This document shows, one piece after another, positions 19,413 to 43,918 of a DNA stretch of 64,000 nt (its first letter is position 1; each line of letters starts with the position of its first letter). This DNA is from Mactra quadrangularis (taxonomy: Eukaryota; Mollusca; Bivalvia; Venerida; Mactridae). The translations under genes were made by a program, and so were the position numbers. The stretch spans positions 37,841,108 to 37,905,107 of the forward strand of contig CM046305.1 in assembly GCA_025267735.1 (NCBI GenBank). Reading direction: 5' to 3'. The notes under the pieces were generated by a model. The model was not told the origin of the DNA, did not search any database, and was given only the letters and a program-made list of their open reading frames with translations.

Positions 19413-22400
19413 CTGGAATACAAAAATAAAATATACATGTAATGTTATCCCAGTTAGCCATTAAAATCTAAAACAATATTTCCACATGATATTATTATAT
19501 CATTTGCTACTTTTAATGGAACCACAATTGCTATTTTAAACTAGCAATCATTAAGTAGATTGCTCAAACCGTTCTCGCATTATAGCGAGTGGTATTCTAA
19601 ATACATGTAGTGTTACCAATGCTGGAATAACTTAATATTGTGATATTCTTTTGCAAAATATAATTATTACGCTCATGATGTTTTGTTGAATCCTATTAAT
19701 TTAAAAAGTGATTTTTTGCATTTTCAAGTATCAGCAAGGGTCATTTTTTCCAGTTCGGTCCTTTACTCGTAGAATAAAGCTCAGAGTTACTTAGCTGTTT
19801 ATATTTACAAAAGTTTTAAATTACGAGACACTGAACATTGTATATGTCTAAATATTTCTCAATAATCTTCTCTATCTGATCATAGTTAAATTGTGTTTTG
19901 CACTTTTCTCATCATAACTGTATTTGTATTTATACTTATACGCCATTACCGATTTATAACATTTAGCATATTCATACCATATATATATTTACTTCTGCAT
20001 GCGTTGTATTTATGTTGTAATACTTGCATAACTTGTAAACTGTTGGGCGTCATGCCTTATGTTTATTGAATAAAGTATCTAACGATCTACATTCACTTAA
20101 TATGAAGAGTTCATTTGACAATACGTTCAATGATAATGTACGTGCACCTACCCAAAAATCAGTGGTTGGATTTGATATTGTACCTACTCCTTCATTCATT
20201 AGCTGAAATAATAAAAATATGCTATAGCTTTAATAAAGGTCCAAATTATAGACGAGGAGACAAATATATATTTTATTACTCTAAGCTAACAATAATTTTA
20301 TACACAATTAAAGGGCACGTTCCGCAAGGCGATCGCTAGCTAGTGCTTTGTAGCGATTTCCTACAGAACGTTTTGCTACGATCGAGCATATTGAATCGCT
20401 AGCTAGCGAAACGTAGCAAGTTTTTTTTCTTGCTAGCCGTATCATTCGAAACGTTTCTGCTTTTTTCAAAATGGCTGTCCCCTGTGGGAATGTCTTTCTT
20501 TTAAAGAAATACTGATATGCATTTCATGTAATGCATATATTTCGTCAAAGCGGTTAAATAGAATAATCATGGCGATAATTGATTTGAATATTTTTCATTT
20601 GTGGCAATTCTAAACCTCTTGTTTTCGAAAGTCGCCATCTTGGATTTGCAAGTTTGAAGCAACCCGTTCCGTAGACCTCTTATGCTACAATAAATCGCTT
20701 TCAACAAGCGCTAGCTAGCAATCGCCTCGCGGAACGTGCCCTTAGATAAATATATGTAAAGAAGCAAAATATTGTGAGATACGCAGAGTTGTTGCGGTTT
20801 ACCCTCATGAGTTTTAATTGCTCAAAATGTACCTCCTATTCTTAGTGAAAAACAGAAAACATATTTTAATTAACAAGTTCAAAATCGTTAATACATACAG
20901 TGGATTTCAAAGCTTGCCATATTTTCTCTGCGGTTATGATTAAATAGTTCTATATCTTATATTTTACAGTAGTGAAAATATAATGTAATAATATTTTCAC
21001 TGCAGTGAATATATTAGATTTATAGTTTACCTGATAACATTGACTGCTGGTAATTCTACTTTTCTGATATAACTGAAATCTAGTCATCCTTGCCAGACGT
21101 TTAGTTAAAGTTCTAACAAATGGGGATTTTGTATTATGATCACACATTGCTGAACTGGAATAAGGAAAGAACATAATATATAGATAGGACTTATTTATGA
21201 AAAATGGCTGATGTTAAAATCAATGTACAATCATATATAACTTTGAACAGTTGTGTCACCTTAATATATATATAAATTATGTTTAATCTATGTTCATTTA
21301 ATACTTCGGAAATAATAAAATGTACATGTTATAAAGCGACTAGTTGATCATTTCAACGGCGAGCGGCGTACTCAATGATCCATCATTTTGTAAAAGGCAG
21401 TATACCACGAAAAAAGCACACTTTAACTTTATTCTTACAAGTACATGTATATTTTAAATACAAATATTTGAAAAAATCTAAAATAGGTGAATTGCTTGTG
21501 CTATATTGATATTATATAGCATCGAAATGTATGTTTTACAGACAAAAAAACGAATCATTCTATATTTGTACTAATATTGTCTCAGGTACGTATTCTGAGT
21601 ATATTTTCATATTTTCTTTACTAATTGATTATACAGTATATTACCTAATCAGCTTTTCTTGACCTTTTATTATTTCTGCTCTTCTAAACTGAAATAAATA
21701 TTCAAAATGAAAGCACATAACAGAACTTAATTTATTATGAACAGCATAAACACACATGATGTATGTCGCCATTACAATACAGAAGCACATAAGAATGACA
21801 TGATATGTTTTCTTACAAATATTCTTAGTGTAGACAAGATATTGTATTACATGTACATGTATATCACAACAATTTTTGTTTGAAGTTTGGCTTGAAATAG
21901 AAACACCAGATTTTAAATTCTACATATTTCCATCAAACAATTTAAAAGTAAGAGGTGTTTCGAATACTTTGACCTGTAACCCCTGATATGAAACCAGTAA
22001 AATAATGTTCTGTTTATTACAAGTATATGCTTCAAACTCGCGTTATTGTTCGTTTTTTCTCAACTGTCAAAACATGAATAATTTCACAGTGAATGCGTTT
22101 GTTAAAATCATTGTCGTAATACACCCATGAGTTTCCGAAAGTGTGTATTATGATTGAGTAAAGCTTCTTATGCTGTATGATATGTTTTATTCAAGATATT
22201 TTTAAAAACAATTAGGCCGCCAGTACAAAATCATTGCAATCAGTCACCGTGAAATTATTCAAGCTTTGACAGTTGAGAAAAAAACGGACAGTATTTATAG
22301 TTTAAGTCTGATGTGCCTTCAGAACGGCGCATCCAAACAGTGAAAATAAGAAAAAAAATCAACTGAAAAATCGATTTTTATTTCATCGATAAATCCCGCT

Positions 22401-25400
22401 ACTCCAGTGGAAAACCATTCTCGTTCCTAGATCGAGATTCTTTGTCATCTCTGGGTACAAGAATGCTGGAAAACATTTAACAAATTCATTTATTAACACA
22501 TCACATATATTATCACTTACAAAATGGTCAGAGTATGAAATCACTGTATCACATTCTTCAGGTGACATGACGTCATGAACAATCTCTATCCTTGGACGCT
22601 TGGAAATTAACTCCACTTTGACTGTACCATACCATTTTGTAAACGGAACCAGAAAACATGTAAGATTCCAGTTAAAATGTAGTTCACCCTGAAAAAAACA
22701 TGAAAACATGTAAAAATCGGCTCACATCCTGTCAATGGCAACTAGATTTGAGCAATTAGTTTACACTAATTAAGGATTTTAGTCAGTTATCTTTTCCTGA
22801 TGAAATCTGAAGCAATCCAATTGGTAAGTAGGTCCTTTCAGTTGGAATCCTCGGATTTTATTATTGAATTTCCATGTAAGGATAACAAAATATTTCGTCT
22901 TATAACTTCCTTGTTAATGAAAATATTAACAGAAGTGATGAAATTTATATATTTCTTTACTCTAACAATACTTAGCTTGAATTTCAAACAAATTTAATGA
23001 TTTACAAAAAGTTTTTTAAGATTAGTTTTGGCAAATTGACATTGAAAAGTCAGGGTAAAATCCGAGCAATCCAACTATCTAGACCTACCTATTTGAACAG
23101 TATACAAGGGGAAATAACTGACTAAGGTCCCTTATTTATTATTTATAGCGCAATCATGACACAAGTTTATTTAACTTAAATTATTCACTTTCTAGCCTGC
23201 TTCCTGGTCCCCTATTAATGAGCTAGTGGGTGAAGTTTCTGTTTCTTGCTCAAGGACACAACGAAGGGATTTCGAATGTGATTGGAACTAACATTGACCT
23301 GGTTATCAAATGATTACAATTCAAGCATCATTTAACCATTAGGCCAACGCCATTCCTCAAAAGAAATTACTATAAAAGTTTCTGCTTTCTGCAAGCATTC
23401 TCTCAGACTAGCTCATATAGTACGTTCTTAATAATGGTTCTACAATAACAAATTAACCCTCGTAAAATCACTCCAACGGTAAAACTCGGACTTTTTCCTC
23501 TAAACCTCATACAAAACAAACTTCTCTAACTCAAAATAATATAGTGACAGGCTTACTTGAACCAAACTAGTAATGGGGTTGTTCCAATGTGGCCGAGAAA
23601 CAATAATTGCAAGTGTTCAGAACACTCATATCGAGTCATGTGATCACGGTTCTAAACGGAACACAATTGGACGTTAAAATTCGTGCTTTCACTTATTTCT
23701 AAGCCATGTCACAGCAGTCTATCTCCTCACTGTTCATGGAGAGACAGTCGGTCAATAGCGCATAGCGTTTGTTTCAAATTCAGCAAAATCACCGGGTTTC
23801 TTTCATTGTGACAATCCGTATGTTAAAACAATGTACATGCAGTTTCTCAAGGTAGTAATCAGTATATTAAAACAATGAGGTTATAATAAGTTCATATATC
23901 ACTTACTAGAGCAGTAGTTCTACATAATCTCTCATATTCTTGTCGTATAATAGTTGACTTAGATGTATCATTGATCTGATATCGTACTAGCTCAGTCTCA
24001 CCATTATCATTGTCTCTAGATTCTAAATATTCAAAGTCTTGTTTAACACCTCTGTCTTCTGGATCTAATATATATAAACAACAAATTCAATCAAAATACA
24101 TTACAGTATAACTTTTGCAGAGCAGCACTCTCCAAAACAAATTCTCTGCACAACAACAGCTTTTAATAGTTCCCTTGGGTGTAATTTTAATTGAATTTAA
24201 CCTCTGCAGTGCAACAACCTCTAAACAGCAACATACTTAAGTCTCTCCCAGTGAGTGTTCTTTAAGAGAGGTTGTACTGTATCATAAATAATTTGATTTG
24301 CAGTCTACTGAATTAGTGGGTGGCCGGTTGCCAGGAGCAACCACTTTGTAGTTAGGGCAACCAAAATTTTTTTTGGGCCAACCAAATTTCTAAAAGCAAG
24401 AGATAGTGCTTGAAGCTAAATCAATCTGTTCGGTGAACACTTTTATATCCTAATTTCGTAGACTGTTACAATAATTTATAGTTATTCCATACGTGATTTG
24501 AGAACAGCCAAATTGTTGGTCCGAGGTTGAGGGGATAGTGTTTTGAGCGGTTGCCCGATGCCGTAGGAATTTAATGATTTGAGTACATTTAGTATTAGTT
24601 ATTAAAATGATAAGTTAAGCATTCAATAAATGTATAAAATCTTATTGTTTTAGGTTTACCTACCTATTTTGTACAATTTTGTTATAATATCTTTAGCCTT
24701 TTCTGTCATACCAAACTGAAATAAATCGTTAAAACATTATAAATGATACAAATCGATGCTCTTATTAAGGTTTATTTGCTGTCAGTAAGCCTAATGTTAA
24801 GACTGTCGTGCTTTGCCAACGTTACGGTTCGGTTCAAACCATAGTATGGGTGCTATGGCTCGTTTCATGTCAAGGTTTACTAAAATTTTATTACACTCAG
24901 CATACGACATTTAGTTTTATCTATGTAGAAAATGAGAGTGATGACAAATTCTGAATGGAACTTAAATTTGACCTAAAAATTGAAGAGCAAGAGCTTGTTT
25001 ACATTCTGAAAAATACTTGACCGTATACTCCTGTAACAATGCACACAGTATCAATAATCAAAGTTTGAAATTCCCTATACATTATTACACCCTAACCCAG
25101 ATTTAATATGGATGACCCTTTTTTAAATCAGGAGTCTCACCTCGTGGTAGCTCATACCAAGTCTTCTATTCAGAACTGACGTTTTAAATGTGACGTCATC
25201 ATAAGTATCCATTTTACTCAGCAAGTACTCATACCACGTGATCGCTTCATACAACATCCCAGCATCCCTTGCAGCATTGGCAATGAAGAATATCTGATCA
25301 CCTGACAGTGGTTTCTCTGATACGTTACCAAGGTTACCTTTGACTACATTTTCAAGGTCAAGGTCGTATACTGTCCAAACATTGAGTAGAGCTTGTGCAG

Positions 25401-28400
25401 CAAATTTGACATCACGTTCTATTGGCCATGGTGATTTCTGACGTCTTTTCACGACCTTTATAACTGAAAAAATCATGAATAAAAAGGAAGTTTTGTTGCT
25501 GTTTCAATGAAAATGTAAGTGGAACCGATTGTTGCGCTGCTTTTTTTCGGACCTAGCGACGGCCCCTTCTAAAATCTGTCCGGATCTGGTATAATCAGTT
25601 TCCATCATGAGTTGAGCTAAATACGACATACACAAATAGGACAGTACATCAGGATCGATTATATTACTTTAAGGGCGTATCATATGAATTGAAAAACACT
25701 ACATGTTCTGTATAAAGTTGGTGGGGTATATAACTATATATTAAAATTATCCATAAATTTCTGAAAATCTTGATATATTTTGTAAGAGATGCATCAAGTA
25801 TATAGACATGACTGTGGAAAAATAAAACATATCGTACATCTACTACAATAAAAATTCCATATTAGGACTATCACAATCGGCGGTCTTAATAGCGGAATAG
25901 CCTTAATACATATAAAGGGAACATTTTCTTCACAAATTTACCATTTGTGACAGACAAATCGTCAATTATCTAAATGTGTTTTTACAGCTGAACCGTATTT
26001 TGTAAAGATCGTCTTATATGGATTTGTGAGTCAATTCACAATGGACAACAACTCAGAAATCTAAAGTCTCTTTCAGATTAACAATAATGCAACCATCTGT
26101 TTCCAGCAAGTTGATATAGGGTATCGTATCTAACTTGAATCAATATTGAATACACAGATGTCATAATTTAGCATTCAAATTGAATACATGATATCTAAGT
26201 TAGGTCCAATAACTTGGCACAACATTCGATGTTCGATATTCGATATTCAATATCGAACATCGAACCAGTTCGACGTTCGACATTAGCATAATGTGCGAAT
26301 ATCGAACTGAAATTGAATATCGAACCAGCTCGACGTTCGACATTCGCCAAAATTATCCAAATATCGAACTGAGATTGAATATCGAACCAGCTCGACGTTC
26401 GACATTCGAATATCGAAATGAAATGGAATATCGAACCAGTTCGACGTTCGACATTCATTTATAATAGCCCGAATGTAGTTCTGAGGTTGAATATCGAACC
26501 AGCTCGACGTTCGACATTCGAATATCGAAATGAAATGGAATATCGAACCAGTTCGACGTTCGACATTCATTTATAATAGCCCGAATGTAGTACTGAGGTT
26601 GAATATCGAACCAGCTCGACGTTCGACATTCATTATTAACAATAATGCGAATGTCGTTCTGTGGTTGAATATCGAACCAGCTCGACGTTCGACATTCATT
26701 AATAATAGTCTGAATGTAGTTCTGAGGTTGAATATCGAACCAGCTCAACGTTCGACATTCATTGATAATAGCCCGAATGTAGTTCTGTGTTTGAATATCG
26801 AACCAGCTCGACGTTCGACATTCATTAATAATAGCCCGAATGTAGTTCTGTGGTTGAATATCGAACCAGCTCGACGTTCGACATTCATTAATAATAGTCC
26901 GAATGTAGTTCTAAGGTTGAATATCGAACCAGCTCGACGTTCGACATTCATTAATAATTGTACGAATGTAGTTTTGAGGTTGAATATCGAACCAGTTCGA
27001 CGTTCGACATTCATTAATAATAGTCCGAATGTAGTTCTAAGGTTGAATATCGAACCAGTTCGACGTTCGACATTCATTGATAATAGTCCGAATGTAGTTC
27101 TAAGGTTGAATATCGAACCAGTTCGACGTTCGACATTCATTAATGATAATGATGCGAATGTAGTTCGAGATTGAATATCGAACCAGCTCGACGTTCGACA
27201 TTCATAAAAGATAGTCCGAATGTAGTTCTGAGGTTGAATATCGAGCCAGTTCGACGTTCGACATTCATTAATAATAGTCCGAATGTAGTTCTGAGGTTGA
27301 ATATCGAACCAACTCGACGTTCGACATTCATTAATAATAGTCCGAATGTAGTTCTAAGGTTGAATATCGAACCAGCTCGACGTTCGACATTCATTAATAA
27401 TTGTACGAATGTAGTTTTGAGGTTGAATATCGAACCAGTTCGACGTTCGACATTCATTAATAATAGTCCGAATGTAGTTCTAAGGTTGAATATCGAACCA
27501 GTTCGACGTTCGACATTCATTGATAATAGTCCGAATGTAGTTCTAAGGTTGAATATCGAACCAGTTCGACGTTCGACATTCATTAATGATAATGATGCGA
27601 ATGTAGTTCGAGATTGAATATCGAACCAGCTCGACGTTCGACATTCATAAAAGATAGTCCGAATGTAGTTCTGAGGTTGAATATCGAGCAAGTTCGACGT
27701 TCGACATTCATTAATAATAGTCCGAATGTAGTTCTGAGGTTGAATATCGAACCAGCTCGACGTTCGACATTCATTAATAAAAGTCTGAATGTAGTTCTGA
27801 AGTTGAATATCGAACCAGCTCGACGTTCGACATTCATTAATAATAGTCCGAATGTAGTTCTGATGTTGAATATCGAACCAGTTCGACGTTCGACATTCAA
27901 AAATAATAGTCCGAATGTAGTTTTGAGGTTGAATATCGAACCAGCACGACGTTCGACATTCATTAATAATAGTCCGAATGTAGTTCTAAGGTTGAATATC
28001 GAACCAGTTCGACGTTCGACATTCATTAATGATTTTGATGCGAGTGTAGTTCTGAGATTGAATATCGAACCAGCTCGACGTTCGACATTCATTAATAATA
28101 GTCCGAATGTAGTTCTGAGGTTGAATATCGAACCAACTCGACGTTCGACATTCATTAATAATAGTCCAAATGTAGTTCTGTGGTTGAATATCGAACCAGT
28201 TTGACGTTCGGACGACTTGTTTCAGCAGGGATACCTCGATTGGGCCCTTGGCCGCGCTTGAATCAGTGGAGCACGGCCTGTTTCTGCGGGGAAAACCTCG
28301 GCTTGGCCCTGGGCGGCGCTGGAATCAGCGGCATGCGGCTTGGATCAGCGAAGGAACCTCGGCTGGGCACTCGGACGGGGCTTCAGCTGGCTCTGTGGGT

Positions 28401-31400
28401 CTTCTACCGGGGTCTACGCGGCCTGCCGCTAATACCTGCCTTGTTGGCTTGATTTTAGCGGAGGCAAGCAAGGGACACCGGGGTTTACCTCGGCTGCAAG
28501 CCAGGCGCGCTTGTATCAGCGGCGGACGGCTTGATTCGGCGGGGAAACATCGGCTGGGCCCTTGATCGCACTTGAATCAGCGGAGCACGGCTTGTTTAAG
28601 CGGGGAAAACCCGGCTAGACCTTCGGCCGCGCTTGAATCAGCGGCGGACGGCATGTTTCAGCGGGGAAACCTCGGCTGGACCCTTGGCCGCGCTTGAATC
28701 AGCGGAGCACGGCCTGTTTCAGAGGGGAAAACTCGGCTGGGCCCTGGGCGGCGCTGGAATCAGCGGCAGGCGGCTTGGATCAGCGGGGAATCTCGGCTGG
28801 GCTCTGCTCGACGTTATGCGAATGTAGTTCTGAAGTTGAATATCGAACCAGCTCGACGTTCGACATTCATTAATAATAATCCGAATGTAGTTCTGAGGTT
28901 GAATATCGAACCAGCTCGACGTTCGACATTCATTAATAATACTAATGCGAATGTAGTTCTGAGGTTGAATATCGAACCAGTTCGACGTTCGACATTCATT
29001 TATAATTGTCCGAATGTAGTTTTGAGGTTGAATATCGAACCAGTTCGACGTTGGACATTCATTAATAATAGTCCGAATGTAGTTCTAAGGTTGAATATCG
29101 ATCCAGCTCGACGTTCGACATTCATTAATTATAGTCCGAATGTAGTTCTGAGGTTGAATATCGAACCAGCTCGACGTTCGACATTCATTAATTATAGTCC
29201 GAATGTAGTTCTGAGGTTGAATATCGAACCAGCTCGACGTTCGACATTCATTAATTATAGTCCGAATGTAGTTCTGAAGTTGAATATCGAACCAGTTCGA
29301 CGTTCGACATTCATTAATAATAGTCCGAATGTAGTTCTGAGGTTGAATATCGAACCAGCTCGACGTTCGACATTCATTAATAATAGTCCGAATGTAGTTC
29401 TGAAGTTGAATATCGAACTAGCTCGACGTTCGACACACATTAATAATAGTCCGAATGTAGTTCTGAGGTTGAATATCGAACCAACTCGACGTTCGACATT
29501 CATTAATAAAAGTCTGAATGTAGTTCTGAAGTTAATTATCGAACCAGCTCGACGTTCGACATTCATTAATAATAGTCCGAATGTAGTTCTGATGTTGAAT
29601 ATCGAACCAGTTCGACGTTCGACATTCAAAAATAATAGTCCGAATGTAGTTTTGAGGTTGAATATCGAACCAGCACGACGTTCGACATTCATTAATAATA
29701 GTCAGAAAGTAGTTCTGAAGTTCAATATCGAACCAGCTTGATGTTCGACATTAATTAATTATAGTCCGAATATAGTTCTGAGGTTGAATATCGAACCAGT
29801 TCGACGTTCGACATTCATTAACAATAATGATGCGAAGCCTATACTGGGCACTAGGCCGCGCATGAATCAGCGGAGCACGGCTTGTTTCAGCGAGAAAACC
29901 TCGGCTGTGCCCTGGGCGGCGCTAGAATCAGCGGCAGGCGGCCTGGATAAGCGAAGGAACCTCGGCTGGGCACCCGGTCGGGACTTCAGCGGGCTCTGCG
30001 GGCTTCTACCGGGGTCTACGCGGCCTGCCGATGATACGCGCCTGTCTGGCTTGATTTCAGCAGAGGCAAGCAAGGGACACCGGGGTTTACCTCGGCTGCA
30101 AGCCAGGCGCGCTTGAATCAGCGGCGGACGGCTTGATTTGGCGGGGAAACATCGGCTTGGGCCTTGGTCGCGCTTGAATCAGCGGAGCACGGCTTGTTTC
30201 AGCGGGGAAAGCCCGGCTGGGCATTCGGCCGCGCTTGAATCAGCGACGGACTGCTTGTTTCAGCGGGGATACCTCGGCTGGATCCTTGGCCGCGCTTGAA
30301 TCAGCGGAGCACGGCTTGTTTCAGCGGGGAAAGCCCAGCTTGTCCCTTGGCAGCGCTTGAATCAGCGGCGGACGGCTTGGATCAGCGGGGAAACCTCGGC
30401 TGGGCCCTTGGCCGCGTTTAATCAGCGCCAGGCGCTCTTGAATCCGCGGCGGACGGCTTATTCCAGCGGGGAAACCTCGGATGGGCCCTTGGCCGTGCTT
30501 AAATCAAAGGCAGGCGGCTTCGATCAGCGGGGAAACCTCGGCTGGGCACTCTGCCGGGCTTTATCGGGCTCCGCGGGCCTTTAACGAGGGTCTATGCGGC
30601 CTGCTACCGATATCGGTCTGGCGCGTTTGATTTCAGCGGAGGCAAGGACGGGACACCAGGGTTTACCTCGGCTGCAAGCCAGGGGCGCTTGAATCAGCAT
30701 CAGACGGCTTGTTTCAGCGGGGAAACATCGGCTGGGCCCTTGGCCGCGCTTGAATCAGCGGAGCACGGCCTCTTTCAGCGGGTAAACCTCGGCTGGGCCC
30801 TTGGCCGCGCTTGAACCAGCGGCAGGCGGCTTGGATCAACGGGGGAACATCGGCTGGGTACTCGGCCGGGGCTTCATCGGGCTTTGCGGGTCCGTTACTG
30901 GGGTCTACGCGGATTGTCGCTGATATTGGCCTGGCTCGCTTGATTTAAGCGGGGTTAAGCACGGGACACCGAATATACCTCCTCTGTTGGTCGCAACCCG
31001 TTACGGCGACTTAAAAAGTGCAGTTAATTATTCATTGTTCTTTTATTAACACCATTGATGCACGATTGATGATCGCTCTCGTGCAGCACAGCGACGCTTC
31101 ATATAAATAGGCTTTTTACGGAACTCCAAATTATGGGTTTCGTGCACAGGCGGTACAAAATCGGAATAAATCAAATTGTTCTCTGTACATACTTTCATTG
31201 TAACGATAAAAGTTAGTTCGCCCGCCCGGCTAGCTCAGTCGGTAGCGAACAAGTCTTCTGATCGAGGTGTCGTGAGTTCGATTCATGGGCGGGGCATACT
31301 GTCGTGAAGCTTGGTCATGAAATAATTTCTATTGTCATTCTCCCTTCTACCACTGATTCAAAATCATGTACGGCAGTTGTCAGTCACTGACGGAAGTAGC

Positions 31401-34400
31401 GCCTAGTAACTGGTTAACAGCTAAATCCAGAGATTAAGGCTTTCCAGGAACGGTGAGTAGGTTGACTGACTGCCATGATATGACCTATACAATGTGTTGC
31501 TGCGGCGTTTAATCCAACAAAACGAACACGCAACTAACACAAAAATTTGTTTGTACCACAAGTATTGTTCGTTTTTTCTCAACTGTCAGAACATGAATAA
31601 TTTCACGGTGAATGCGTTTATTAAAATCATTTTTGTAAAACATCCATGAGTTTCCGAAAGCGTGTATTATGATCAAGTTAAGCTGTTTATGCCGTATGAT
31701 ATGTTTTAGTCGAGATATTTTTAATAACAATTAGGCCGCCAGTACAAAAACAATGCATTCAGTCACCGTGAAATTATTCATGCTTTGACAGTTGAGAAAA
31801 AACGGACAATAAAACCCCAAAAATTTGAATTCCGGATATAGTCTATTCATGTGATTGACTATATAATTTGTTAGCTAGATGTCTTAATATTGTGTGAACA
31901 AAAATATTAAAAACAAATATTGCATGAATAAAAGTACTTCGATCCAAAGAAATTAAGTCAACAACCAATGTGCTAAATATTGAAAAAAATACATACGTCT
32001 AATATTATTAACGAATGTCAAATATCGAGCTGGTACGATATTGAACCTTAGAACTACATTCGGACTATCATGAATGAATGTCGAACGTCGAACTGGTTCG
32101 ATATTCAACCTCAGAACTACATTCTCATTATTATTATTAATGAATGTCAAACGTCGAGCTGGTTCGATATTCAACTTCAGAACTACATTCGGACTATTAT
32201 TAATGAATGTCGAACGTCGAGCTGGTTCGATATTCAACTTCAGAACTAAATTCGGACTATTATTAATGAATGTCGAACGTCGAGCTGGTTCGATATTCAA
32301 TCTCAGAACAACAATCGGATTATTATTAATGAATGTCGAACGTCGAGCTGGTTCGATATTCAACTTCAGAACTACATTCGGACTATTATTAATGAATGTA
32401 GAACGTCGAGCTGGTTCGATATTCAACCTCAAAACTAGATTCGGACTATTATTAATGAATGTCGAACGTCGAGCTGGTTCGATATTCAACTTCAGAACTA
32501 AATTCGGACTATAATGAATGAATGTCAAACGTCGAGCTGGTTCGATATTCAACCTCAGAACTACATTCGGACTAATATTAATGAATGTCACATGTCGAGC
32601 TGGTTCGATATTCAACCTCAGAACTACATTCGGACTATTATTAATGAATGTCGAACGTCGTGCTGGTTCGATATACAGCTTCAGAACTACATTCGCATCA
32701 ACGTCGAGCAGAGCCCAGCCGAGATTCCCCGCTGATCCAAACCGCCTGCCGCTGATTCCAGCGCCGCCCAGGGCCCAGCCGAGGTTCCCCCGCTGAAACA
32801 GGCCGTGCTCCGCTGATTCAAGCGCGGCCAAGGGTCCTGCCGAGGTTTCCCCGCTGAAACAATCCGTCCGCCGCTGATTCAAGCGCGGCCGAAGGTCTAG
32901 CCGGGCATTCCCCGCTGAAACAAGCCGTGCTCCGCTGATTCAAGTGCGACCAAGGGCCCAGCCGATGTTTCCCCGCCGAATCAAGCCGTCCGCCGCTGAT
33001 ACAAGCGCGCCTAGCTTGCAGCCGAGGTAAACCCCGGTGTCCCTTGCTTGCCTCCGCTAAAATCAAGCCAACCAGGCAGGTATTAGCGGCAGGCCGCGTA
33101 GACCCCGGTAGAAGGCCCACAGAGCCCACAGAGCCAACTGAAGCCCCGTCCGAGTGCCCAGCCGAGGTTCCCCCGCTGATCCAAGCCGCATGCCGCTGAT
33201 TCCAGCGCCGCCCAGGGCCAAGCCGAGGTTTCCCCGCAGAAACAGGCCGTGCTCCACTGATTCAAGCGCGGCCAAGGGCCCAATCGAGGTATCCCCGCTG
33301 AAACAAGTCGTCCGAACGTCAGACTGGTTCGATGTTCAACCACAGAACTACATTCGGACTATTATTAATGAATGTCGAACGTCGAGCTGGTTCGATATTC
33401 AACCTCAGAACTACATTCGGACTATTATTAATGAATGTCGAACGTCGAGCTGGTTCGATATTCAATCTCAGAACTACATTCGCATCAAAATCATTAATGA
33501 ATGTCGAACGTCGAACTGGTTCGATATTCAACCTTAGAGCTACCTTCGGACTATTGTTAATGAATGTCGAACGTCGAGCTGGTTCGATATTCAACTTCAA
33601 AACTACATTCGGACTATAATTAATGAATGTCGAACGTCGAACTGGTTCGATATTCAACATCAGAACTACATTCGGACTATTATTAATGAATGTCGAACGT
33701 CGAGCTGGTTCGATATTCAACTTCAGAACTACATTCAGACTTTTATTAATGAATGTCGAACGTCGAGCTGGTTCAATATTCAACCTCAGAACTACATTCG
33801 GACTATTATTAATGAATGTCGAACGTCGAACTGGTTCGATATTCAACCTCAGAACTACATTCGGACTATCTTTTATGAATGTCGAACGTCGAGCTGGTTC
33901 GATATTCAATCTCGAACTACATTCGCATCATTATCATTAATGAATGTCGAACGTCGAACTGGTTCGATATTCAACCTTAGAACTACATTCGGACTATTAT
34001 TAATGAATGTCGAACGTCGCACTGGTTCGATATTCAACCTTAGAACTACATTCGGACTATTATTAATGAATGTCGAACGTCGAACTGGTTCGATATTCAA
34101 CCTCAAAACTACATTCAGACTATTATTAATGAATGTCGAACGTCGAACTGGTTCGATATTCAACCTCAGAACTACATTCGCATTAGTATTATTAATGAAT
34201 GTCGAACGTCGAGCTGGTTCGATATTCAACCTCAGAACTACATTCGGACTATTATTAATGAATGTCGAACGTCGAGCTGGTTCGATATTCAACCTCAGAA
34301 CTACATTCGGACTATTATTAATGAATGTCGAACGTCGAGCTGGTTCGATATTCAACCTCAGAACTACATTCGGACTATTAGTAATGAATGTCGAACGTCG

Positions 34401-37400
34401 AACTGGTTCGATATTCAACATCAGAACTACATTCGGACTATCTTTTATGAATGTCGAACGTCGAGCTGGTTCGATATTTAATCTCAGAACTACATTCGCA
34501 TCATAATCATTAATGAATGTCGAACGTCGAACTGGTTCGATATTCAACCTTAGAACTACATTCGGACTATTATTAATGAATGTCGAACGTCGAGCTGGTT
34601 CGATATTCAACCTTAGAACTACATTCGGACTATTATTAATGAATGTCGAACGTCGAACTGGTTCGATATTCAACCTCAAAACTACATTCGGACTATTATT
34701 AATGAATGTCGAACGTCGAACTGGTTCGATATTCAACCTCAGAACTACATTCCCATTAGTATTATTAATGAATGTCGAACGTCGAGCTGGTTCGATATTC
34801 AACCTCAGAACTACATTCGGACTATTATTAATGAATGTCGAACGTCGAGCTGGTTCGATATTCAACTTCTGTTCGATATTGGCACATTATGCAAATGTCG
34901 AACGTCGAACTGGTTCGATATTCGATATTGAATATCGAATATCGAACGTCGAATGTTGTGCTAAGTTATTGGAGCTTCTAAAGCTCACTGATTTTACAAC
35001 GTTTTTGTAACAGGGTGAGAAAATATGCAGCCTGGCCAGTTTTTAACCCAGAATCTCCGCTTACAAAACAAATGCTCTCCAAGTTAATTTTTTGACCGCT
35101 TACATATCCTTCTCTCCATAATGTGAACAGGTAAGTACCAGGACTGTCACGGTATACCGGTATATTGCAATATACGCAATGCAGCAATACGTACCGCGGT
35201 ACGATTTTAATGTACCGGTATTTGGCGATATTGTTTACTTCATTGGAAAATTCTCCCCTTCGCGATATAAATTATAAAACATCAGTTTTTCCATTGTTCA
35301 TTCCATCTAACCTAAGTTAAAGAATTTAACCGACTGGGGCGCGTCTTAGTCCTAAATGCCTGTAAATACTTAAAGAGGCTAGATTCTATCAGTAGCTGCA
35401 TATATATAAGATTTGCAATGTTTCTGTTAAATACAGCGGAGGCACAACGAATCTAAAAGCCCACAATATATCGTGAGTGCGTATCGCAATACGATGCCAG
35501 CGTATTGCAATATATCGCGGTACGCTTGTGGCGTATCGTGACAGCCCTAGTACCATGACTTTTTTATAATTTCATGCTATTTGTCCTTTCTGAAAATATG
35601 AGAACTTTTTAAGTACTTAAGGGTATAAATCTATATAACTTACGAAATATGCCAACATAAACTAAACAAATCATGAGCTTTAGCGTCTGAGGTCTCCCGT
35701 TCTCGAATGATCACAGCGTATATCATTTTTTTTATAAACATGTCTCTGTGATTCAATACATACAGTTTAACCAGAGACATAAATTCCCTGGTTTAACGTG
35801 ACAAAATGATAATTAATTAATCAACATTATCTTGGCTATGTATAAATTGACATAACATATAAAAACATATTAAAATGTTTTAAGAATAACGATTTTATTA
35901 ACTTACATAATAATCATCAAATAGGGACATAACAATATGGTAAAAACCGTATAGCAATACATTGCAATACGAATTGCTTTTGCAAAACACATGCACCGTT
36001 TTAAATCGATCAACATTACAACCCACAGCAAGGGAAGAATACCCTTAAAATGTCTCACCCAGGGGAGCTGGTATTCAACTCGACAGAGTCGAACACAAAA
36101 ATCGATTTAACTCCGTAGAATACTGAGGTAAATCGATAAGAAAGGCAGATCCCAGCCAGGGGGCAGAGTATTCAACTCTTTAAAGAAAGAGTCGAACAAA
36201 TAAATATGCAAGTGTACATACACTTTGTAAGCCTGAAATGTATACAGTCAAACCTGTGTATTGTGACCTTCATTCGGAGATAGCCAAAAAAAGTCACATT
36301 ATACAGAGGGTCACAATACGCAGGGTACAAATACAACTCAAGTTTTGTGTACACTATTCAGAAGTACAATGTATCCAACACAAAGGTTAATGTTAAAAAT
36401 GTTTAAAATCTATAAAATCTGTAAAATGTATAAAATCTATAAAACCTAAAAAGTACATGTTGCCCTAAGAAAACAAGTGTTTATCAAGTTTTTGTGGCAA
36501 TCAGGAGGTCCTGCTTGAGAAAAAGTCACTAATTTTTGCTGTTTGCGTTTCACTAACGACAGTTCTACTAATTTGTCACTCACACTGGTGGCTAAATCCA
36601 TTAGTTCAACATTTCCTGTATTTTGGGAATATAATTTAAGGTGGGTCGGTACCTTTCTCGGAGGGAAAAACGAAAAAATATTTTGTTCACCGATTATAAT
36701 AAAAGTTGGCAGGCAGATACCTTCATGCTTCTTGTTTGTTTTTCTGGTAACCTTAGCGACGTTGTCGGTTGTTTTTTTCACGACGTCACGGACGTCACAA
36801 TGGTTCGCGCTAAAACAGGCATGCAACTTCATTAAACCCATATATTTAAAGTATTGAATGTCCGAGGACAAAGATTATTATACCGAAATGTTTCTGAAAT
36901 ATTGTTGCATACAATCATTTTGTTCCGATTATCCAAATATCATGTCATTCGTAAAGATTGTACATTTCATCACTGAATTTAGGGTTTTCACGTCTAAAAG
37001 GTTTCACCAATTGCCGAGTTATAATGGTTATTTTCAAATTAAAGCAGAACGGTGGTCAACTTCTTATCGCGATTTTTGAAATCTACGCACTTTTTGTGTC
37101 ATTTTAGTAAAATAAAAAAGGGAAGTGAACGTTCTCAGTTTTTCACAATATCGCTATCGAAGTAAAAGTACCTTCATTACAACGACGTTAATATAACGTT
37201 ACTTTGGCGTTGTGATTTGCATTTGTTGTAAAGATAAGTAGAAGCGGATTTTGATTGACTTATGTTAAATTTATTTTGATCAGATTAGATGCTGAGTGTC
37301 ACAAGAAATTAATTAAGAACTGGAAAGAAACTACAAAATTGAATTTACAAGGAAATTACATACATAACCAAAAATCACAACGTCATCGCAATGTAATATC

Positions 37401-39857
37401 AACGTCGTTGTTTTGAAGGTAATTTTACTTTGAAAGCGATATTGTGAAAAACTGAGAACGTTCACTTTCCTTTTTTATTTCATTAAAATGACACAAAAAG
37501 TGTGTAGTTTTCAAAAATCGCGATAAGAATTTGACCACCGTTCTGCTTTAATTTGAAAATAAACGTTATAACTCGGCAATTGGTGAAACCTTTTAGACGT
37601 GAAAACCCTAAATTTAGTAATGATATGTACAATCTTTACGACTGACGTGATATTTAGATAATCGGAACAAAATGATTGTATGCAACAACATTTCAGAAAC
37701 ATTTCGGTGTAATAATCTTTGTCCTCGGACATTCAATACTTTAAATATATTGGTTTAATGTAGTTGCATGCCTGTTTTTAGCGCGAACCATTGTGACGTC
37801 CGTGACGTCGTGAAAATAAAGGACAACGTCGCTAAGGTTACCAGAAAAACAATCAAGAAGCATGAAGGTATCTGCCTGCCAACTTTTATTATAATCGGTG
37901 AACATAATATTTTTTTCGTTTTTCCCTCTGAGTAAGGTACCGACCCACCTTAAGTTTGGATGCTAAGTCTACTGCTTCAGATGTTGTTGGAACAGGAATT
38001 TGGCTCTCTCCTCTCCCTTGACACGGTCCTAATACACAGAGTCGGATGCATTTTCAGCCTCAATTTCATAGGTCACTTGTCACATTAGACAGAGGATTGT
38101 AATATACAGGTTTAATATATAGGAAAATGTCACGGGAGACACCAAATTAGGTCGCAATTGACAGATAGTCACATTATACAGAGGGTCGCTAAGGCAGGTT
38201 TGACTGTATTTCAACCCAATAACGGCCGGCATGGTTCCGAGAAAAAAACTCAGTCTAAACTGTGCCTACCAGTACTTTATTAAGTTTATGCGTAAATAAA
38301 TTAACAGTAGTCATTTTCACAAAAGAAATTTCGATACAATTCATCGTAAGTTAAAAGCAGGCAACATTCATTACACCGTCATTCTCAATAATATGCTTTC
38401 ATTATGTGGAATAGTAAATACTTTCTGAAATTAATATCATTATGATATCATATTTTTAGGCTTTGAACTTTATTTTTTTTAATTTGACTAACGACATTTC
38501 TTTCGTAAGATTTTATTGTGAAAATGACTACTGGTTCTCACCCTCTTCTCCTGTCAGTATAGGACATTCTTCTACTTCCGGGTCACACGACATTGTCTTA
38601 GAAAATTGTTCCCATTCAATAACAGTACGATATAGGATATAGAACACAGACAGTGGGTTGTCTGCACCATTGGTTTCTGTAGATGCATTGTTTGCCTGGT
38701 CAATGTAATCTAAAAATCTGAAATATATACAAATATATGTTAGTAAAAATATAGTATTGATATAATACTGCAATTGTACCCCCTTGTCTCCAATCTAGCT
38801 TTTATGACGATGTGCTATAGTGTAGAAGTGGTCGTGGTCGAGTGGTTTCGACGTTTGACTGGTTATCATTGAATAGCCCGCTCCGCGTTGGTTGGAATCC
38901 CATTCAAAATCTATCCCGTTGTTTCCTTGAGCAAGAAACTTTATCCTACTAGCTCAGTACCAGAAAGCGAACTCGAAAGTTATTAATATAAGTTGTATGA
39001 ACTTGTTTCACAATAGAGCTTTATAGTAACATTATACTATTAAACATATGATACCAGGCACGATTCGTAATAAGCAACATTTGTTTCGATAGATGCCAGT
39101 GATTAGTTATCACTATACTGCAATTATTTTTGGTGAATGATACTCTCGTGCCAATAATACGTCAGCGACCCCAATCGTTACTAGGGGTGTAACGATGCGG
39201 TAAAACTTTATTGCTATATATTGCAATACCCAAACCCCCATATTGCAATATAAATATACGTTACTTGTTTTAGCGTAAAGAAGCGAAACAGGAATTAATA
39301 TGCATTAATATGCATTCGTCCTCACATGATTAACATTGCATACATATGTGTACTTTGAAATATTCAGTTATACGGACCATTAAATAGGCTATATTTGTGT
39401 TGAAGAAACAGACTTTTGATTTATTCATTTAAATGTAACTTATCATATTCTATACATATTATATAAAGATTAAATTTAAACCAAAAGTAAAAATGGTAGA
39501 GATCATGGATAAAGCCTTTGGCCGAAATGTTTGGTATAAAGGGTGAATAAAATATGTTTTAAGAAAATCCCTCTGAAGTGATTCATATAAATCAGAAATT
39601 ATCAAATGACACAGATATTAGAATCAACCAGTCTCGTCCACGTTTAATATCAACAATAAAACTTACTCTTTAACTTGTGGTTCATAACTAATTCCACGTT
39701 TTTCTTGCCTGCTTATATATCCAGTCAAACTTGTCCATATTTCTCGTTCAGTTTTTAAAATTTTATTTATTTCAAATTGTGTCAGGTACAATTTACTTAG
39801 TCCTATTTCTATCCATACACACATTAAACAAAATATAAATATTTTTGAAATTTTCAT
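19353..39857 (-). CDS. Prolyl 4-hydroxylase alpha-subunit-like protein with altered iron-binding motif; C-terminus missing
   Basis: Ten exons on the minus strand join with matching phases: 39857-39667, 38717-38542, 25463-25141, 24715-24664, 24064-23907, 22688-22521, 21688-21645, 21154-21031, 20202-20152 and 19412-19353 (1347 nt, 449 codons). In order they give a signal peptide (MKISKIFIFCLMCVWIEIGLS), the P4Ha_N coiled region, the TPR-like peptide-binding domain (KFAAQALLNVW, KGNLGN, EAITWYEYLL), the linker with YERLC, and the start of the 2OG-Fe(II) double-stranded beta-helix (RPRIEIVHDVMSPEE; NEGVGTISNPTTDFW; GNKLATIHM). Canonical enzymes hydroxylate collagen-type prolines in the ER with PDI as beta subunit, using two His and one Asp for iron. 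Here exon 9 has T-T-D where family members have H-x-D, so the first iron His is absent. The exons carrying the second His and the 2OG-binding Lys (about 90 residues) were not found down to 7 kb. It is either a non-catalytic paralogue, possibly a collagen- or peptide-binding protein, or a decaying gene. No frameshift or internal stop was seen. Intron 2 (13 kb) holds the giant foldback element. Confidence 0.82.
20152..20202 (-). CDS. P4HA-like exon 9: metal-ligand segment with His replaced by Thr
   Basis: A 51-nt exon (17 codons) between ATTTCAG and GTAGGT, phase 0/0. LMNEGVGTISNPTTDFW aligns without gaps with the family pattern V.NYG.GG.Y.PH.DF. The GVG, P and D-F are kept, but the iron-binding His is Thr and the Tyr after Asn is Glu. 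It was found by position, phase and alignment, so it is less secure than its neighbours. Confidence 0.66.
20311..20743. mobile_element. MITE with AAGGGCACGTTCCGC ends
   Basis: The ends AAGGGCACGTTCCGCAAGGC and the complementary right end extend about 35 bp through GCTAGCTAG. It is 433 bp long, lies in the intron after P4HA-like exon 8, and has no open frame. The duplication could not be fixed. Confidence 0.78.
21031..21154 (-). CDS. P4HA-like exon 8
   Basis: A 124-nt exon. It reads SAMCDHNTKSPFVRTLTKRL, then ARMTRFQLYQKS, matching SAWL....PVV.R...RI...TG. The final codon CAG abuts the donor GTAAAC. Confidence 0.76.
21645..21688 (-). CDS. P4HA-like exon 7 (44 nt)
   Basis: It starts FRRAEIIKGQEKLI, equivalent to LRRA.......V..R. 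Acceptor ATTTCAG, donor GTAATA. Phase 0 in, phase 2 out, which fits exon 8 exactly. Confidence 0.72.
22046..22291 (+). mobile_element. TA-flanked MITE, CGTTTTTTCTCAACTG ends (copy 1)
   Basis: The inverted ends (TTGTTCGTTTTTTCTCAACT; right end AGTTGAGAAAAAAACGGACA) are followed inward by ATGAATAATTTCAC, also inverted. TA lies at 22044-22045 and 22292-22293. The second copy, at 31565-31809, is in the foldback loop. Confidence 0.82.
22416..22465. repeat. Deleted copy of the CATTCTCGTTCC MITE
   Basis: It starts CATTCTCGTTCCTAGATCGA and ends CTGGGTACAAGAATG. It is a shortened relative of 5016-5097 and 40499-40573, immediately downstream of P4HA-like exon 6. Confidence 0.6.
22521..22688 (-). CDS. 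P4HA-like exon 6: start of catalytic domain
   Basis: A 168-nt exon (56 codons), phase 0/0. It carries NLTCFLVPFTKW, then VELISKRPRIEIVHDVMSPE, the typical entry strand (P.I...HD..S..E) of P4HA 2OG-Fe(II) domains. The donor is GTAAGT. Confidence 0.85.
23021..23130 (-). repeat. Interspersed repeat, inverted partner of 18897-19090
   Basis: CAAGGGGAAATAACTGACTAA and flanks match the reverse complement of the other copy. Confidence 0.6.
23185..23356 (-). repeat. SINE family B copy (minus strand)
   Basis: The minus-strand head GGCGTTGGCCTAATGGTTAA is followed by TTGAGCAAGAAAC-like sequence, as in copies at 38829 and 50766. Confidence 0.5.
23907..24064 (-). CDS. P4HA-like exon 5: linker with YERLCR
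   Basis: A 158-nt exon between TATTAG and GTAAGT. It starts DPEDRGVKQDFEYLESRD and ends RQEYERLCRTTAL, the Y-E-x-L-C-R signature before the catalytic domain. The usual Gly after R is Thr. Confidence 0.83.
24104..24279. mobile_element. 176-bp TA-flanked element with CAGTA(T/C)AAC ends
   Basis: CAGTATAACTT and its inverted partner GGTTGTACTG are flanked by TA (24102-24103, 24280-24281). The architecture matches 57053-57226 (CAGT ends). It starts only 37 bp upstream of P4HA-like exon 5. Confidence 0.6.
24664..24715 (-). CDS. P4HA-like exon 4 (52 nt)
   Basis: Acceptor ATTTCAG, donor GTAGGT. It reads FGMTEKAKDIITKLYKI, the last TPR helix that precedes the conserved D-P of the next exon. Phase 0 in, phase 1 out. 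Confidence 0.78.
25141..25463 (-). CDS. P4HA-like exon 3: peptide-substrate-binding (TPR) domain
   Basis: A 323-nt exon, phase 1 in and phase 0 out. It reads PIERDVKFAAQALLNVW, YDLDLENVVKGNLGN, then GDQIFFIANAARDAGMLYEA and ITWYEYLLSKMD. This is the helical domain that binds proline-rich peptides in P4HA; Tyr and Trp residues suited to peptide stacking are kept. Confidence 0.87.
26225..28206 (+). repeat. 63-bp tandem repeat block A1 (about 31 units)
   Basis: The unit includes AATATCGAACCAGCTCGACG, TTCGACATTCATTAATAATA and GTCCGAATGTAGTTCTGAGGTTG. It has five CpGs per unit and a dyad (GAATATCGAAC/GTTCGACATTC, 8-bp spacer). Leftmost units are irregular with TCGATATTCGATATTC motifs. Because 63 is divisible by 3, frames stay open on both strands; this is not evidence of a protein. 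Confidence 0.92.
28207..28807 (+). repeat. GC-rich ~61-bp tandem repeat block B1
   Basis: Units such as GCTTGAATCAGCGGCGGACG, GCTTGTTTCAGCGGGGAAAC, CTCGGCTGGGCCCTTGGCCGC are repeated with variation. The inverted block 32704-33309 is nearly identical in order and sequence. Confidence 0.9.
28808..29833 (+). repeat. 63-bp tandem repeat block A2 (about 16 units)
   Basis: Same unit and orientation as A1, with unit variants (ATTAATTATAG, ATTAATAATACTAATGCG) arranged in short runs. Confidence 0.9.
29834..30985 (+). repeat. GC-rich tandem repeat block B2 with higher-order repeats
   Basis: Same ~61-bp units as B1. A longer module ending TACCTCGGCTGCAAGCCAGG or its variant recurs about every 320-580 bp (near 30090, 30670, 30980), each after a TCTACGCGGCCTGC-type segment. 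No inverted partner exists on the right arm. Confidence 0.87.
31221..31530 (+). mobile_element. SINE family A copy in the foldback loop
   Basis: The head CGCCCGGCTAGCTCAGTCGG, B-box GAGTTCGATTC, the body TCCAGAGATTAAGG and the 3' end CCAACAAAACGAAC match 16836-17156. It was inserted after the loop formed or carried by it. Confidence 0.85.
31565..31809 (+). mobile_element. TA-flanked MITE, CGTTTTTTCTCAACTG ends (copy 2, in foldback loop)
   Basis: About 90% like 22046-22291 over its whole length and in the same orientation. TA lies at 31563-31564 and 31810-31811. Confidence 0.85.
32006..32703 (-). repeat. 63-bp tandem repeat block A3 (inverted)
   Basis: About 11 units, reverse complement of A1/A2. 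The innermost units are degenerate (CGAGCTGGTACGATATTGAA). Confidence 0.9.
32704..33309 (-). repeat. GC-rich tandem repeat block B3 (inverted copy of B1)
   Basis: The reverse complement follows B1 unit by unit, including odd variants (CCTCGATTGGGCCC, GGCATGCGGC). The main visible difference is a small tandem gain of GGCTCTGTGGG. Confidence 0.9.
33310..34973 (-). repeat. 63-bp tandem repeat block A4 (inverted) and right terminus
   Basis: About 25 units in inverted orientation. The last 100 bp (to 34973) mirror the left terminus with ATAATGTGC and TTCGATATTGAATATCG motifs. Confidence 0.9.
35140..35548. mobile_element. hAT-like MITE with (C)AGG(A/G)CTGTCACG ends
   Basis: Left AGGACTGTCACGGTATACCG and right GGCGTATCGTGACAGCCCT are inverted, and TATTGCAATATA motifs repeat inside. 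AGTACC flanks both ends (35134-35139, 35549-35554); a full 8-bp duplication is not evident. Confidence 0.7.
36245..38206. mobile_element. TA-flanked element (CAGTCAAACC ends) split by a palindromic insertion
   Basis: CAGTCAAACCTGTGTATTG and right GGCAGGTTTGACTG are inverted and flanked by TA (36243-36244, 38207-38208). Inner TCACATTATACAGAGGGTC motifs are present on both sides. The element at 36640-37949 lies inside it. The ends resemble pogo-type MITEs. Confidence 0.72.
36640..37949. mobile_element. 1.31-kb near-palindromic element flanked by TTAA
   Basis: About 560-600 bp arms (start GGTGGGTCGGTACCTT) are inverted repeats with ~5-10% differences around a ~150-bp centre. TTAA lies on both sides (36636-36639, 37950-37953), the piggyBac-type duplication, though GG ends are atypical for piggyBac. 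Open frames in the arms exist on both strands and differ between arms, so they look non-coding. Confidence 0.83.
38542..38717 (-). CDS. P4HA-like exon 2
   Basis: A 176-nt exon with acceptor TATTTCAG and donor GTGAGA. It carries FLDYIDQA and NPLSVFYILYRTVIEWEQF, the counterpart of the family's (H)P.NAF.L..R...EW segment. Three Cys/acidic residues follow (CDPEVEEC). Confidence 0.83.
38829..39018 (+). repeat. SINE family B copy in P4HA-like intron 1
   Basis: The head GTGGTCGTGGTCGAGTGG, a degenerate B-box (GGTTGGAATCCC), TTGAGCAAGAAACTT and the tail GAACTTGTTTCA. Confidence 0.65.
39667..39857 (-). CDS. P4HA-like exon 1: start codon and signal peptide
   Basis: The ATG at 39857 is preceded upstream by an in-frame stop. 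It opens a hydrophobic leader (KIFIFCLMCVWIEIGL), then KTEREIWTSLTGYI, matching the P4HA N-terminal TEK.L...L..YI pattern. The donor GTAAGT leaves phase 2. Confidence 0.8.
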
Positions 39858-40966: not shown

Positions 40967-41807
40967 GATGCAAATATTTTCTGTTTATTTATATTTATAT
41001 ATATATTATATCTAAAGCTAAAAATAATGGACTAATCTATATAAATAGTTGTAGGCCTACTTTTATAATTCATGTGTGAATTTAAGATTTGAAACAAATC
41101 AAATGCATTTCCGTAAAGTAGTAATGAAGGACCAAACTATCGTATGCAACCAGTAGATATGGACACGTAACACGATTATTAGGAAAGCCCATAGAATTAA
41201 CTCATTATTGACTATGTTTGGTAACAGCTGTAAATGAGATGTCGTGTGTACCCTGGATCAATGATAGGTGAGCGACGATCAATGTGAACCATTTTGTTCT
41301 GATAACAAAATACCATGTTCAATAACCGTAATTGCTTAAGCTGTTTTTCGCCGTAGAAATTTTTCATGAAAGCCCAACTGATAAAACGTTAAGCAAATTC
41401 ACAAACCGTCTTCTTAAAAACAGAGATAATACGTTTATGCTTCTTTCACTTATCAACACTCTTGGTGCGTATGAAAAAAAAGTTTTTTATTATTTTCGGG
41501 CCTTTAAAAACAAAAAACCTCCTTGCAGTCCCCCCTCCCCCAAAAAATCCTGGACTTCAGGACTAGTTCCAGTGCAAACTTTAACTCATGAATGTTCCAA
41601 GTCACCATCTAAGAAAGTTTTTTTTACAACAGAGCACAAGTGTAACAATAAAGCATCTTGTATGCTTTACAAAGAAATCCGTGACAGATTATTTCAAAAA
41701 TACATTCAAAGCGTTCAAATTATAGAAATATCTAATCTCTAAAAATCTAATCGCTAAATTAAGTTTTATATATCAAATTAACAGCATATCGGTATCGTTA
41801 TGAATAG

Positions 41808-43682: not shown

Positions 43683-43686
43683 AAAT

Positions 43687-43904: not shown

Positions 43905-43918
43905 ACGGAGGAGAGAGT
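43905..43918 (+). promoter_or_regulatory. Putative polypurine tract
   Basis: CGGAGGAGAGAG lies just before the right LTR, where plus-strand synthesis would be primed. Confidence 0.65.

Follow-up and report, generated by a model that had tools for sequence, protein, structure and literature searches.

A multi-kilobase foldback element in an intron of a P4HA-like gene of Mactra quadrangularis belongs to a dispersed family with two alternating satellite modules in its arms

The window analysed here is the whole 64,000-nt stretch of contig CM046305.1 of Mactra quadrangularis. It carries exons of a gene for a P4HA-like protein, a collagen-modifying enzyme, whose nearest match is from Mactra antiquata (75%). 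Two of these exons border a 13,078-nt intron, 67% of which is occupied by an 8.8-kb inverted repeat (Table 1). The downstream exon matches Pfam P4Ha_N under the curated cut-off. The placement of the element inside an intron of this gene, with the potential to form a hairpin, had been proposed from the letters alone and was borne out by the exons and splice sites on both sides and by the alignment of the arms. Consequently, unspliced RNA of the gene can form a double strand on the kilobase scale, which might, as the original prediction proposed, feed RNA editing or the production of small RNAs.

Table 1. Features of the element and of its host intron (window positions).
Feature	Position	Strand	Basis or remark
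P4HA-like exon downstream of element	25141..25464	-	P0001 residues 123-230, 87%; PDB 2yq8
P4HA-like host intron, phase 1, GT-AG	25464..38541	-	tblastn of P0001; splice sites by eye
Left flank 8-mer TCTAAGTT, possible decayed target-site duplication	26194..26201	.	most other complete copies have an 8-9 bp duplication at the same spot
Left terminal domain, 5' start AGGTCCAATAACTTGGCACAACATTCGA	26202..26329	+	93.8% identity to right end (26202-26329 against 34976-34849)
A1, tandem array, mostly 63-bp units, 31 units	26255..28210	+	TRF and anchor scan
B1, GC-rich 61-bp array with ~130-bp spacer	28213..28806	+	
A2, 63-bp array, 16 units	28807..29836	+	TRF and anchor scan
B2, inner GC-rich array without right-arm counterpart	~29837..30990	+	family trait according to other copies
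Core (loop)	30991..32002	+	common to other copies
SINE captured in core	31222..31528	+	related copies at 16843-17150, 57532-57858 and 49866-50139
MITE-like insert captured in core	31563..31811	+	90.8% to 22044-22293; short inverted ends
A2', 63-bp array, 11 units	32003..32698	-	TRF and anchor scan
B1', GC-rich 61-bp array	32699..33314	-	95.4% to B1
A1', 63-bp array, 25 units	33315..34923	-	TRF and anchor scan
Right terminal domain, terminal letters AAGTTATTGGAGCT	34849..34976	-	matches right ends of other copies
Right flank 8-mer TCTAAAGC, possible decayed target-site duplication	34977..34984	.	termini fixed from other copies
P4HA-like exon upstream of element	38543..38716	-	P0001 residues 65-122, 86%

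The original prediction placed an element with near-identical inverted ends and a loop of ~1 kb at 26205-34973; both were found, and the limits were refined to 26202-34976. Between the arms, 2,958 bp could be aligned with 95.5% identity, and the terminus gave two matches in the window against none in 100 shuffles. Arrays of a 63-bp unit (A) alternate with arrays of a GC-rich 61-bp unit (B), mirrored around the core. The predicted arrays and their mirrored order thus stood, but the inner GC-rich block of the left arm (B2) is unpaired on the right. TRF delimited the 63-bp arrays at 26255-28210, 28819-29826, 32003-32695 and 33313-34923. The 11-mer GTTCGAYATTC/GAATRTCGAAC occurs 150 times within the element and not once in the 55,225 bp of window outside it. 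A set of twelve inner A1 units runs colinear with its mirror partners, with 1.42 differences per unit at register 0 versus 4.4-5.4 at 12 shifted registers (6-12 units each). The SINE in the core has a tRNA-like head by eye; ARAGORN called no tRNA gene in it, and scanning the window for tRNAs and Rfam families gave no hits.

The window copy has no clean target-site duplication. Its two flanking 8-mers agree at the first five bases only, a 5-of-8 remnant, and a free scan of the flanks performed no better than random sites (P 0.93).

Across the 979-Mb host genome, window included, the exact left end was counted 78 times and the exact right end 90 times, compared to 0 and 0 for the reversed patterns used as a control. 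Pairing of left with right ends yielded 53 elements of 6,528-17,345 bp with 53 distinct lengths, and at least about 112 elements with an exact AGGTCCAATAACTT end. Twenty copies were fetched out of 40 loci that match the left end of the window element without a difference; because of this choice, the identity and age figures given for them are biased towards close relatives. The termini are common to the family: the left end, for which the copies were chosen, has 0-1 mismatches over 120 nt in all 20, and the right end has 0-2 across the same length in the 17 copies, besides that of the window, that are complete.

Insertion footprints were evident in most of these 17 copies, with perfect 9-bp duplications in 13, perfect 8-bp duplications in two, a nine-bp duplication with one mismatch in one, and none at the fixed termini in the last (L026). 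Random 9-mers of the window agree in 16 of 400,000 cases. Two short elements bounded by left ends on both sides also show family ends and perfect 9-bp duplications (by eye), around different cores; the family therefore carries more than one core. Arm lengths in the 18 complete copies, window included, range from 2,079 to 7,047 bp on the left and from 2,270 to 6,151 bp on the right. Structurally, the element is a foldback: its arms consist of subrepeats and vary in length between and within copies, and dispersed copies sit in duplicated target sites (perfectly so in 15 of the 17, the window copy itself being an exception). The expectation that other copies would share its termini was confirmed at many loci; of those read from end to end, most have 8-9 bp duplications, each at its own site.

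The core is present at full length in 17 of the 20 fetched copies, at 97.5-98.8% identity to the window, and partially in two; the full-length cores of other copies include both the SINE and the MITE. Under variable arm lengths the module order is fixed: (AB)n-core-a(ba)m was observed in 18 of the 19 fetched copies in which the core was reached, as well as in the window. The core is flipped at locus L011, and L050 contains a single 16-mer that also stands in the window core. In a core alignment of 20 rows, sequences deviate from the majority by 0.10-1.09%, in a star-like pattern with 90 private versus 7 shared minor alleles. Such low and mostly private divergence indicates a recent burst.

Evidence on whether conversion between arms keeps them alike was mixed. 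The nearest foreign relative lies in the same arm for 46 of 49 B modules (480-600 bp), which speaks against it; in favour, 16 of 20 copies have their best match to the inner A1/B1 block of the window's left arm in the right arm.

Taken together, we assign a probability of roughly 0.8 to a non-autonomous family of foldback DNA transposons that is moved in trans and belongs most likely to the Mutator (MULE) superfamily. The transposase acting in trans, most likely of MULE type, would recognize the ends and the palindromic motif repeated across the A arrays, making these arrays putative binding sites, and would insert the element through a 9-bp, sometimes 8-bp, staggered cut. Arms may grow through unequal exchange or template slippage, and recombination between arms could flip the core. 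Duplications of the Mutator-type 8-10 bp length were found in the 17-copy set and in the two left-left elements, which is consistent with a MULE.

The host genome contains 43 MULE-domain matches over the cut-off, and for eight of these the open frame spans 703-1,204 codons. None of the 43 comes within 20 kb of any of the 168 exact ends, and no transposase with the family termini was found. At eight of the 43 loci (two with 10 kb and six with one 3-kb downstream piece) neither a family end nor the motif was seen. Terminus-like 14-mers at L044 and L045 stood in the wrong orientation, did not continue into a family end and were counted as chance. A six-frame search of the window loop for a transposase, with stops written as X, returned a single sub-threshold Pfam match (LodA_C, E 0.16). 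Proteins in the repeat frames had no match among 8,000 scored candidates, nor among 188 candidates. The unit core and terminus gave no match in viral contigs and the left end none in plasmids, collections that may hold no clam DNA.

Because no coding copy was found, duplication length and structure are the whole basis for the superfamily. This leaves some room for the unlikely case that another superfamily, of hAT, P or Merlin type, moves the element and that the foldback arms are of independent origin. These types make duplications of lengths near 8-9 bp. Galileo and the P superfamily produce 7-bp duplications, and P was discounted by length given the 9 or 8 bp found; Helitrons and Helentrons make none, and that identity was rejected because 15 of the 17 copies have duplications of 8-9 bp. 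The predominance of 9-bp duplications (13 of 17, with just two of 8 bp) argues against the other types, as does the link of 8-10 bp duplications and long repeated ends to Mutator in the available parts of PMC4079207, PMC3169594 and PMC5225508.

The A arrays might instead be targets of a sequence-specific anti-silencing protein, with arms growing because of the protection from silencing that they give to copies. A parallel would be the VANC proteins of VANDAL elements, which bind to tandem repeats located in noncoding parts of these elements. CpG is abundant in the A arrays (observed/expected 2.0-2.2 versus 0.73 elsewhere in the window), and CpG transitions make up only 12 of the 133 differences between the window arms, as expected for unmethylated DNA. 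However, high CpG is partly inherent in the repeat unit, low CpG loss equally fits youth and low clam methylation, and to our knowledge VANC is known only from plants. We regard this explanation as improbable.

A satellite array turned palindromic in place by inverted duplication, with resident intron DNA as its loop, fitted the diverged SINE and the missing window duplication before other copies were known; this "intact palindromic satellite" alternative of the original prediction is rejected because of the 8-9 bp target-site duplications at other copies (perfect in 15 of 17), and a core recurring with its SINE and MITE (full length in 17 of the 20 fetched copies, partial in two) leaves it scarcely credible. 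Missed sequencing adapters are known to create artificial palindromes, but an assembly or hairpin-read artefact is very unlikely, because the arms are only 95.5% identical and contain unequal numbers of units, and arms of the same type recur at 20 other loci; the 53 paired elements also have 53 different lengths.

Beyond the non-autonomous foldback reading, we tentatively suggest, while considering it doubtful, a vector-like class of transposons. Here two unrelated satellites in the order (AB)n-core-a(ba)m would change by whole AB steps faster than by point mutation, and the core would be exchangeable and invertible. The A arrays might act as a platform with multiple sites for a helper protein, and B might represent spacers or a captured satellite. 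Each jump could seed a satellite and, within introns, a palindrome able to form dsRNA. The kilobase palindrome in the P4HA-like intron offers a natural test of how molluscs handle dsRNA; molluscs possess ADAR1, according to the available part of PMC6651903.

No bivalve foldback family appeared among the literature matches listed, which cover subscription journals thinly. Among mactrid repeats, SSUsat has, in the accessible description (PMC5537241), a monomer of 315 bp that contains one TaqI site, which sets it apart from A, with a period of 63 and several TCGA sites per unit. Oyster Helitron/Helentron-type elements, including CvA, CvE and CvG, are likewise bivalve mobile elements with satellite-like repeats, but the accessible text of PMC11136912 describes these repeats as central, whereas those of the clam family lie in inverted arms.

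The following likenesses and differences refer to the portions of the cited papers that were available. Tetris of Drosophila virilis (PMC4079207) resembles the clam family in being non-autonomous, in combining a flanking domain with tandem repeats in inverted arms, in its 8-10 bp duplications and variable middle, and in repeats that have a stretch in common with its terminal domain. However, it has one repeat type of ~220 bp and arms of up to 1,735 bp, compared to two unrelated alternating types and arms of up to ~7 kb. Muta1 of Aedes aegypti, an active animal MULE, and related animal MULEs (PMC5225508) share the palindromic end motif, subterminal tandem repeats, duplications of 8 or 9 bp and non-autonomous relatives whose internal sequences are mixed; the repeats of Muta1 measure 12 bp and an autonomous copy is known, whereas none was found for the clam family. 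Tm1, a Mutator/Foldback element of root-knot nematodes (PMC3169594), has similar composite inverted ends, a variable number of tandem repeats, mostly 9-bp duplications with some copies lacking them, and nested elements in some; in contrast to the clam family, its repeats measure 13-15 bp and some members encode a putative transposase. Galileo of the P superfamily (PMC3688188) also has long arms with tandem repeats, which contain extra binding sites for the transposase domain, but its arms measure 0.5-1.2 kb and its transposase is of P type.

The foldback transposons in the available parts of these four papers (PMC4079207, PMC3688188, PMC3169594, PMC5225508) are those of flies, mosquitoes and nematodes, with a single kind of repeat in the arms. 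Compared to them, the bivalve family is larger and recently active, alternates two satellites under a fixed rule and carries more than one cargo; consequently, the turning of transposon arms into satellite DNA, and recombination between arms, can be watched in it.

The foldback element of the window is an imperfect palindrome at 26202-34976. The original prediction had placed it at 26205-34973; the palindrome is present, and its true extent is 3 bases wider at either side. Its near-identical inverted ends were confirmed as terminal domains with 93.8% identity across 128 bp, and arm-to-arm identity was 95.5% across 2,958 aligned bp. The proposed mirrored module order is real in both arms, except that the B2 block has no right-arm partner. 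In 12 inner A1 units, mirror partners differed by 1.42 per unit in register versus 4.4-5.4 in 12 shifted registers, indicating that those arm parts are colinear copies rather than independent arrays. An imperfect palindrome of 31 bp lies in every 63-bp unit; its half, GTTCGAYATTC, occurs (both orientations) 150 times inside the element and nowhere else in the window. Since the terminal domain, like the outermost units, carries the same kind of motif as judged by eye, the A arrays probably grew out of the element's own end.

Modules of the window copy in left-to-right order, with the exons flanking it (A, 63-bp arrays; B, 61-bp GC-rich arrays; primes, right-arm partners)
Feature	Window position	Strand	Location	Content
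Left terminal domain			Outermost, left arm	
A1			Left arm, inside terminal domain	31 units, mostly 63 bp
B1			Left arm, inside A1	61-bp GC-rich units and ~130-bp spacer
A2			Left arm, inside B1	16 units
B2			Left arm, innermost, adjoins core	
Core			Between B2 and A2'	About 1 kb
A2'			Right arm, first after core	11 units
B1'			Right arm, between A2' and A1'	
A1'			Right arm, followed by terminal domain	25 units
Flanking P4HA-like exons	38716-38543 and 25464-25141	minus	Element in the intron between them	

The host genome (979,026,929 bases, 447 contigs) was searched for the terminus, and other copies were found, as expected for a foldback family. The window's left 116 bp drew 406 candidates; with 40 of these scored, at least 40 places, the window included, matched it at 100% over the full query. 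Exact left ends (35-mer) numbered 78 and exact right ends (34-mer) 90, window included, with reversed-pattern controls of 0 and 0. Pairing of left and right exact ends on the same strand and no more than 22 kb apart yielded 53 elements including the window copy, all of different length (6,528-17,345 bp, median 10,160), and left 25 left and 37 right ends without a pair. By arithmetic, the family comprises at least 112 elements if none exceeds 22 kb, two left-left elements and one right-right element being counted once. Right-type ends flank G000:C1:27030313-27035621 on both sides, 5.3 kb apart. Near 459-501 of locus L014 (G000:C12:44682041-44682143), one copy's right end lies 34 bp from another's left end.

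Copies were fetched from 20 of 39 other places and 11 were extended; this sample is biased to copies sharing the window's left end, and 17 of the 20 were complete (incomplete: L009, L013 and L019). The family ends are AGGT...AGCT. At these fixed ends, 13 of the 17 complete copies carried a perfect 9-bp target-site duplication, two a perfect 8-bp duplication (L021, L023) and one a 9-bp duplication with one mismatch (L015), while L026 had none; two random 9-mers of the window agreed by chance in 16 of 400,000 trials. The window copy retains only TCTAAGTT / TCTAAAGC at its fixed ends, which means that its duplication has decayed or been lost; a free scan of its flanks for a duplication gave nothing above random sites.

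The core was reached in 19 of the 20 fetched copies. The order (AB)n-core-a(ba)m, where a and b are reverse-oriented modules, n = 1-3 and m = 1-4, was found in 18 of these 19 and in the window copy, with L013 and L019 not read as far as their right ends; in the exception, L011, the core and its neighbours are flipped. In L009, an ABA series gives way to 6 kb of unrelated DNA that has an integrase-like reading frame and is interpreted as a nested insertion. From about 4.1 kb this copy holds integrase-like and low-complexity frames, presumably of a nested Polinton-like element.

Seventeen of 20 copies have the entire window core with its SINE and MITE-like insert, at 97.5-98.8% to the window sequence; L011 and L026 have part of it, and it was not seen in L009 as read. 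In the core alignment (20 rows including the window), sequences lay 0.10-1.09% from the majority; of the minor alleles, 90 were private and 7 shared. Such low divergence with mostly private alleles points to a star-like, recent expansion. Against a roughly threefold range of arm lengths among copies, the cores are nearly uniform, which suggests a faster turnover of module number than of single bases. L028 shows a small internal rearrangement: core positions 910-1012 recur at 5304-5406, about 450 bp past the core. A SINE copy related to the core SINE lies at window 16843-17150, with 14-bp flanking repeats TACTAAATAAAGAA recognized by eye, and a second copy of the MITE-like insert at 22044-22293; by eye, both insert copies are apparently TA-flanked.

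For 46 of 49 B modules (480-600 bp), the nearest relative lay in the same arm of another copy, the exceptions being two modules in L011 and one in L020. Mean between-copy distances were 2.1% left-left, 2.5% right-right and 2.7% left-right. Together these values speak for arms with separate histories since the burst. Against this, in 16 of 20 copies it was the right arm that best matched the window's left inner-A1/B1 block (up to 98.0%, versus 97.3% to the window's own right arm), which makes some exchange between arms likely.

On contigs C15 and C5, convergent left ends enclose elements 5,154 and 5,314 bp long, each with a perfect 9-bp duplication by eye. The 1.2-kb middle pieces read from them hold array sequence on either side of a stretch other than the window core, with which L050 has one 16-mer in common and L053 none. 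The same kind of end therefore bounds at least three different cores.

Duplication length and structure point to the Mutator superfamily as the most likely one for this family. The genome contains 43 MULE-domain (PF10551) matches over cut-off, the longest in reading frames that stay open for 1,204 codons. All lie farther than 20 kb from every one of the 168 exact ends, with 130 kb as the smallest distance. No family end or motif was found in the eight MULE loci read out of these 43, for which 10 kb (two loci) or a single 3-kb downstream piece (six loci) was covered. L042 and L047, both among these eight, carry 141-bp and 135-bp tandem arrays no more than a few kilobases from the MULE frame; repeat arrays beside MULE genes thus occur in this genome, but of another sequence. 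These arrays (L042 2405-3000, L047 1127-2047) carry the motif CACTGTAGCGGACC near MULE reading frames and possibly represent another repeat-armed MULE family.

The predicted intronic position was upheld: the element lies between two exons of the minus-strand P4HA-like gene whose splice sites and phase fit, as judged by eye, and occupies 67% of the 13,078-nt intron. The best protein match of the 307-aa query is a Mactra antiquata sequence annotated as prolyl 4-hydroxylase (75% across that query), which makes a mactrid clam the probable host; the five strongest exon matches reach 85-91% and several other matches are lower. When four pieces from both arms were folded with a short linker as minus-strand RNA, predicted pairing was almost exclusively cross-arm (579, 418, 310 and 435 pairs versus 0, 0, 8 and 0 local pairs). 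A palindromic MITE-like element was seen by eye directly right of the foldback element, at about 35134-35552. Elsewhere in the window, a 1,882-bp tandem duplication (41802-43683 / 43915-45796, 99.84% identity) is either very recent or an assembly duplicate, and the complex tandem array at 58800-61710 repeats at a higher order about every 643 bp and has RSRSQGH-like translated frames.

Both structure and mobility place the clam family in the foldback class. Among the papers listed in literature searches, judged by title and abstract opening, none described a bivalve foldback family; the satellite-carrying elements of oysters differ, being Helitron-like with central repeats (PMC11136912). The nearest in kind are Tetris (PMC4079207), Tm1 (PMC3169594), Muta1 (PMC5225508) and Galileo (PMC3688188). 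As far as these papers go, the clam family is new among described foldbacks in its two unrelated repeat types in fixed alternation, its size, its bivalve host and its captured SINE and MITE.
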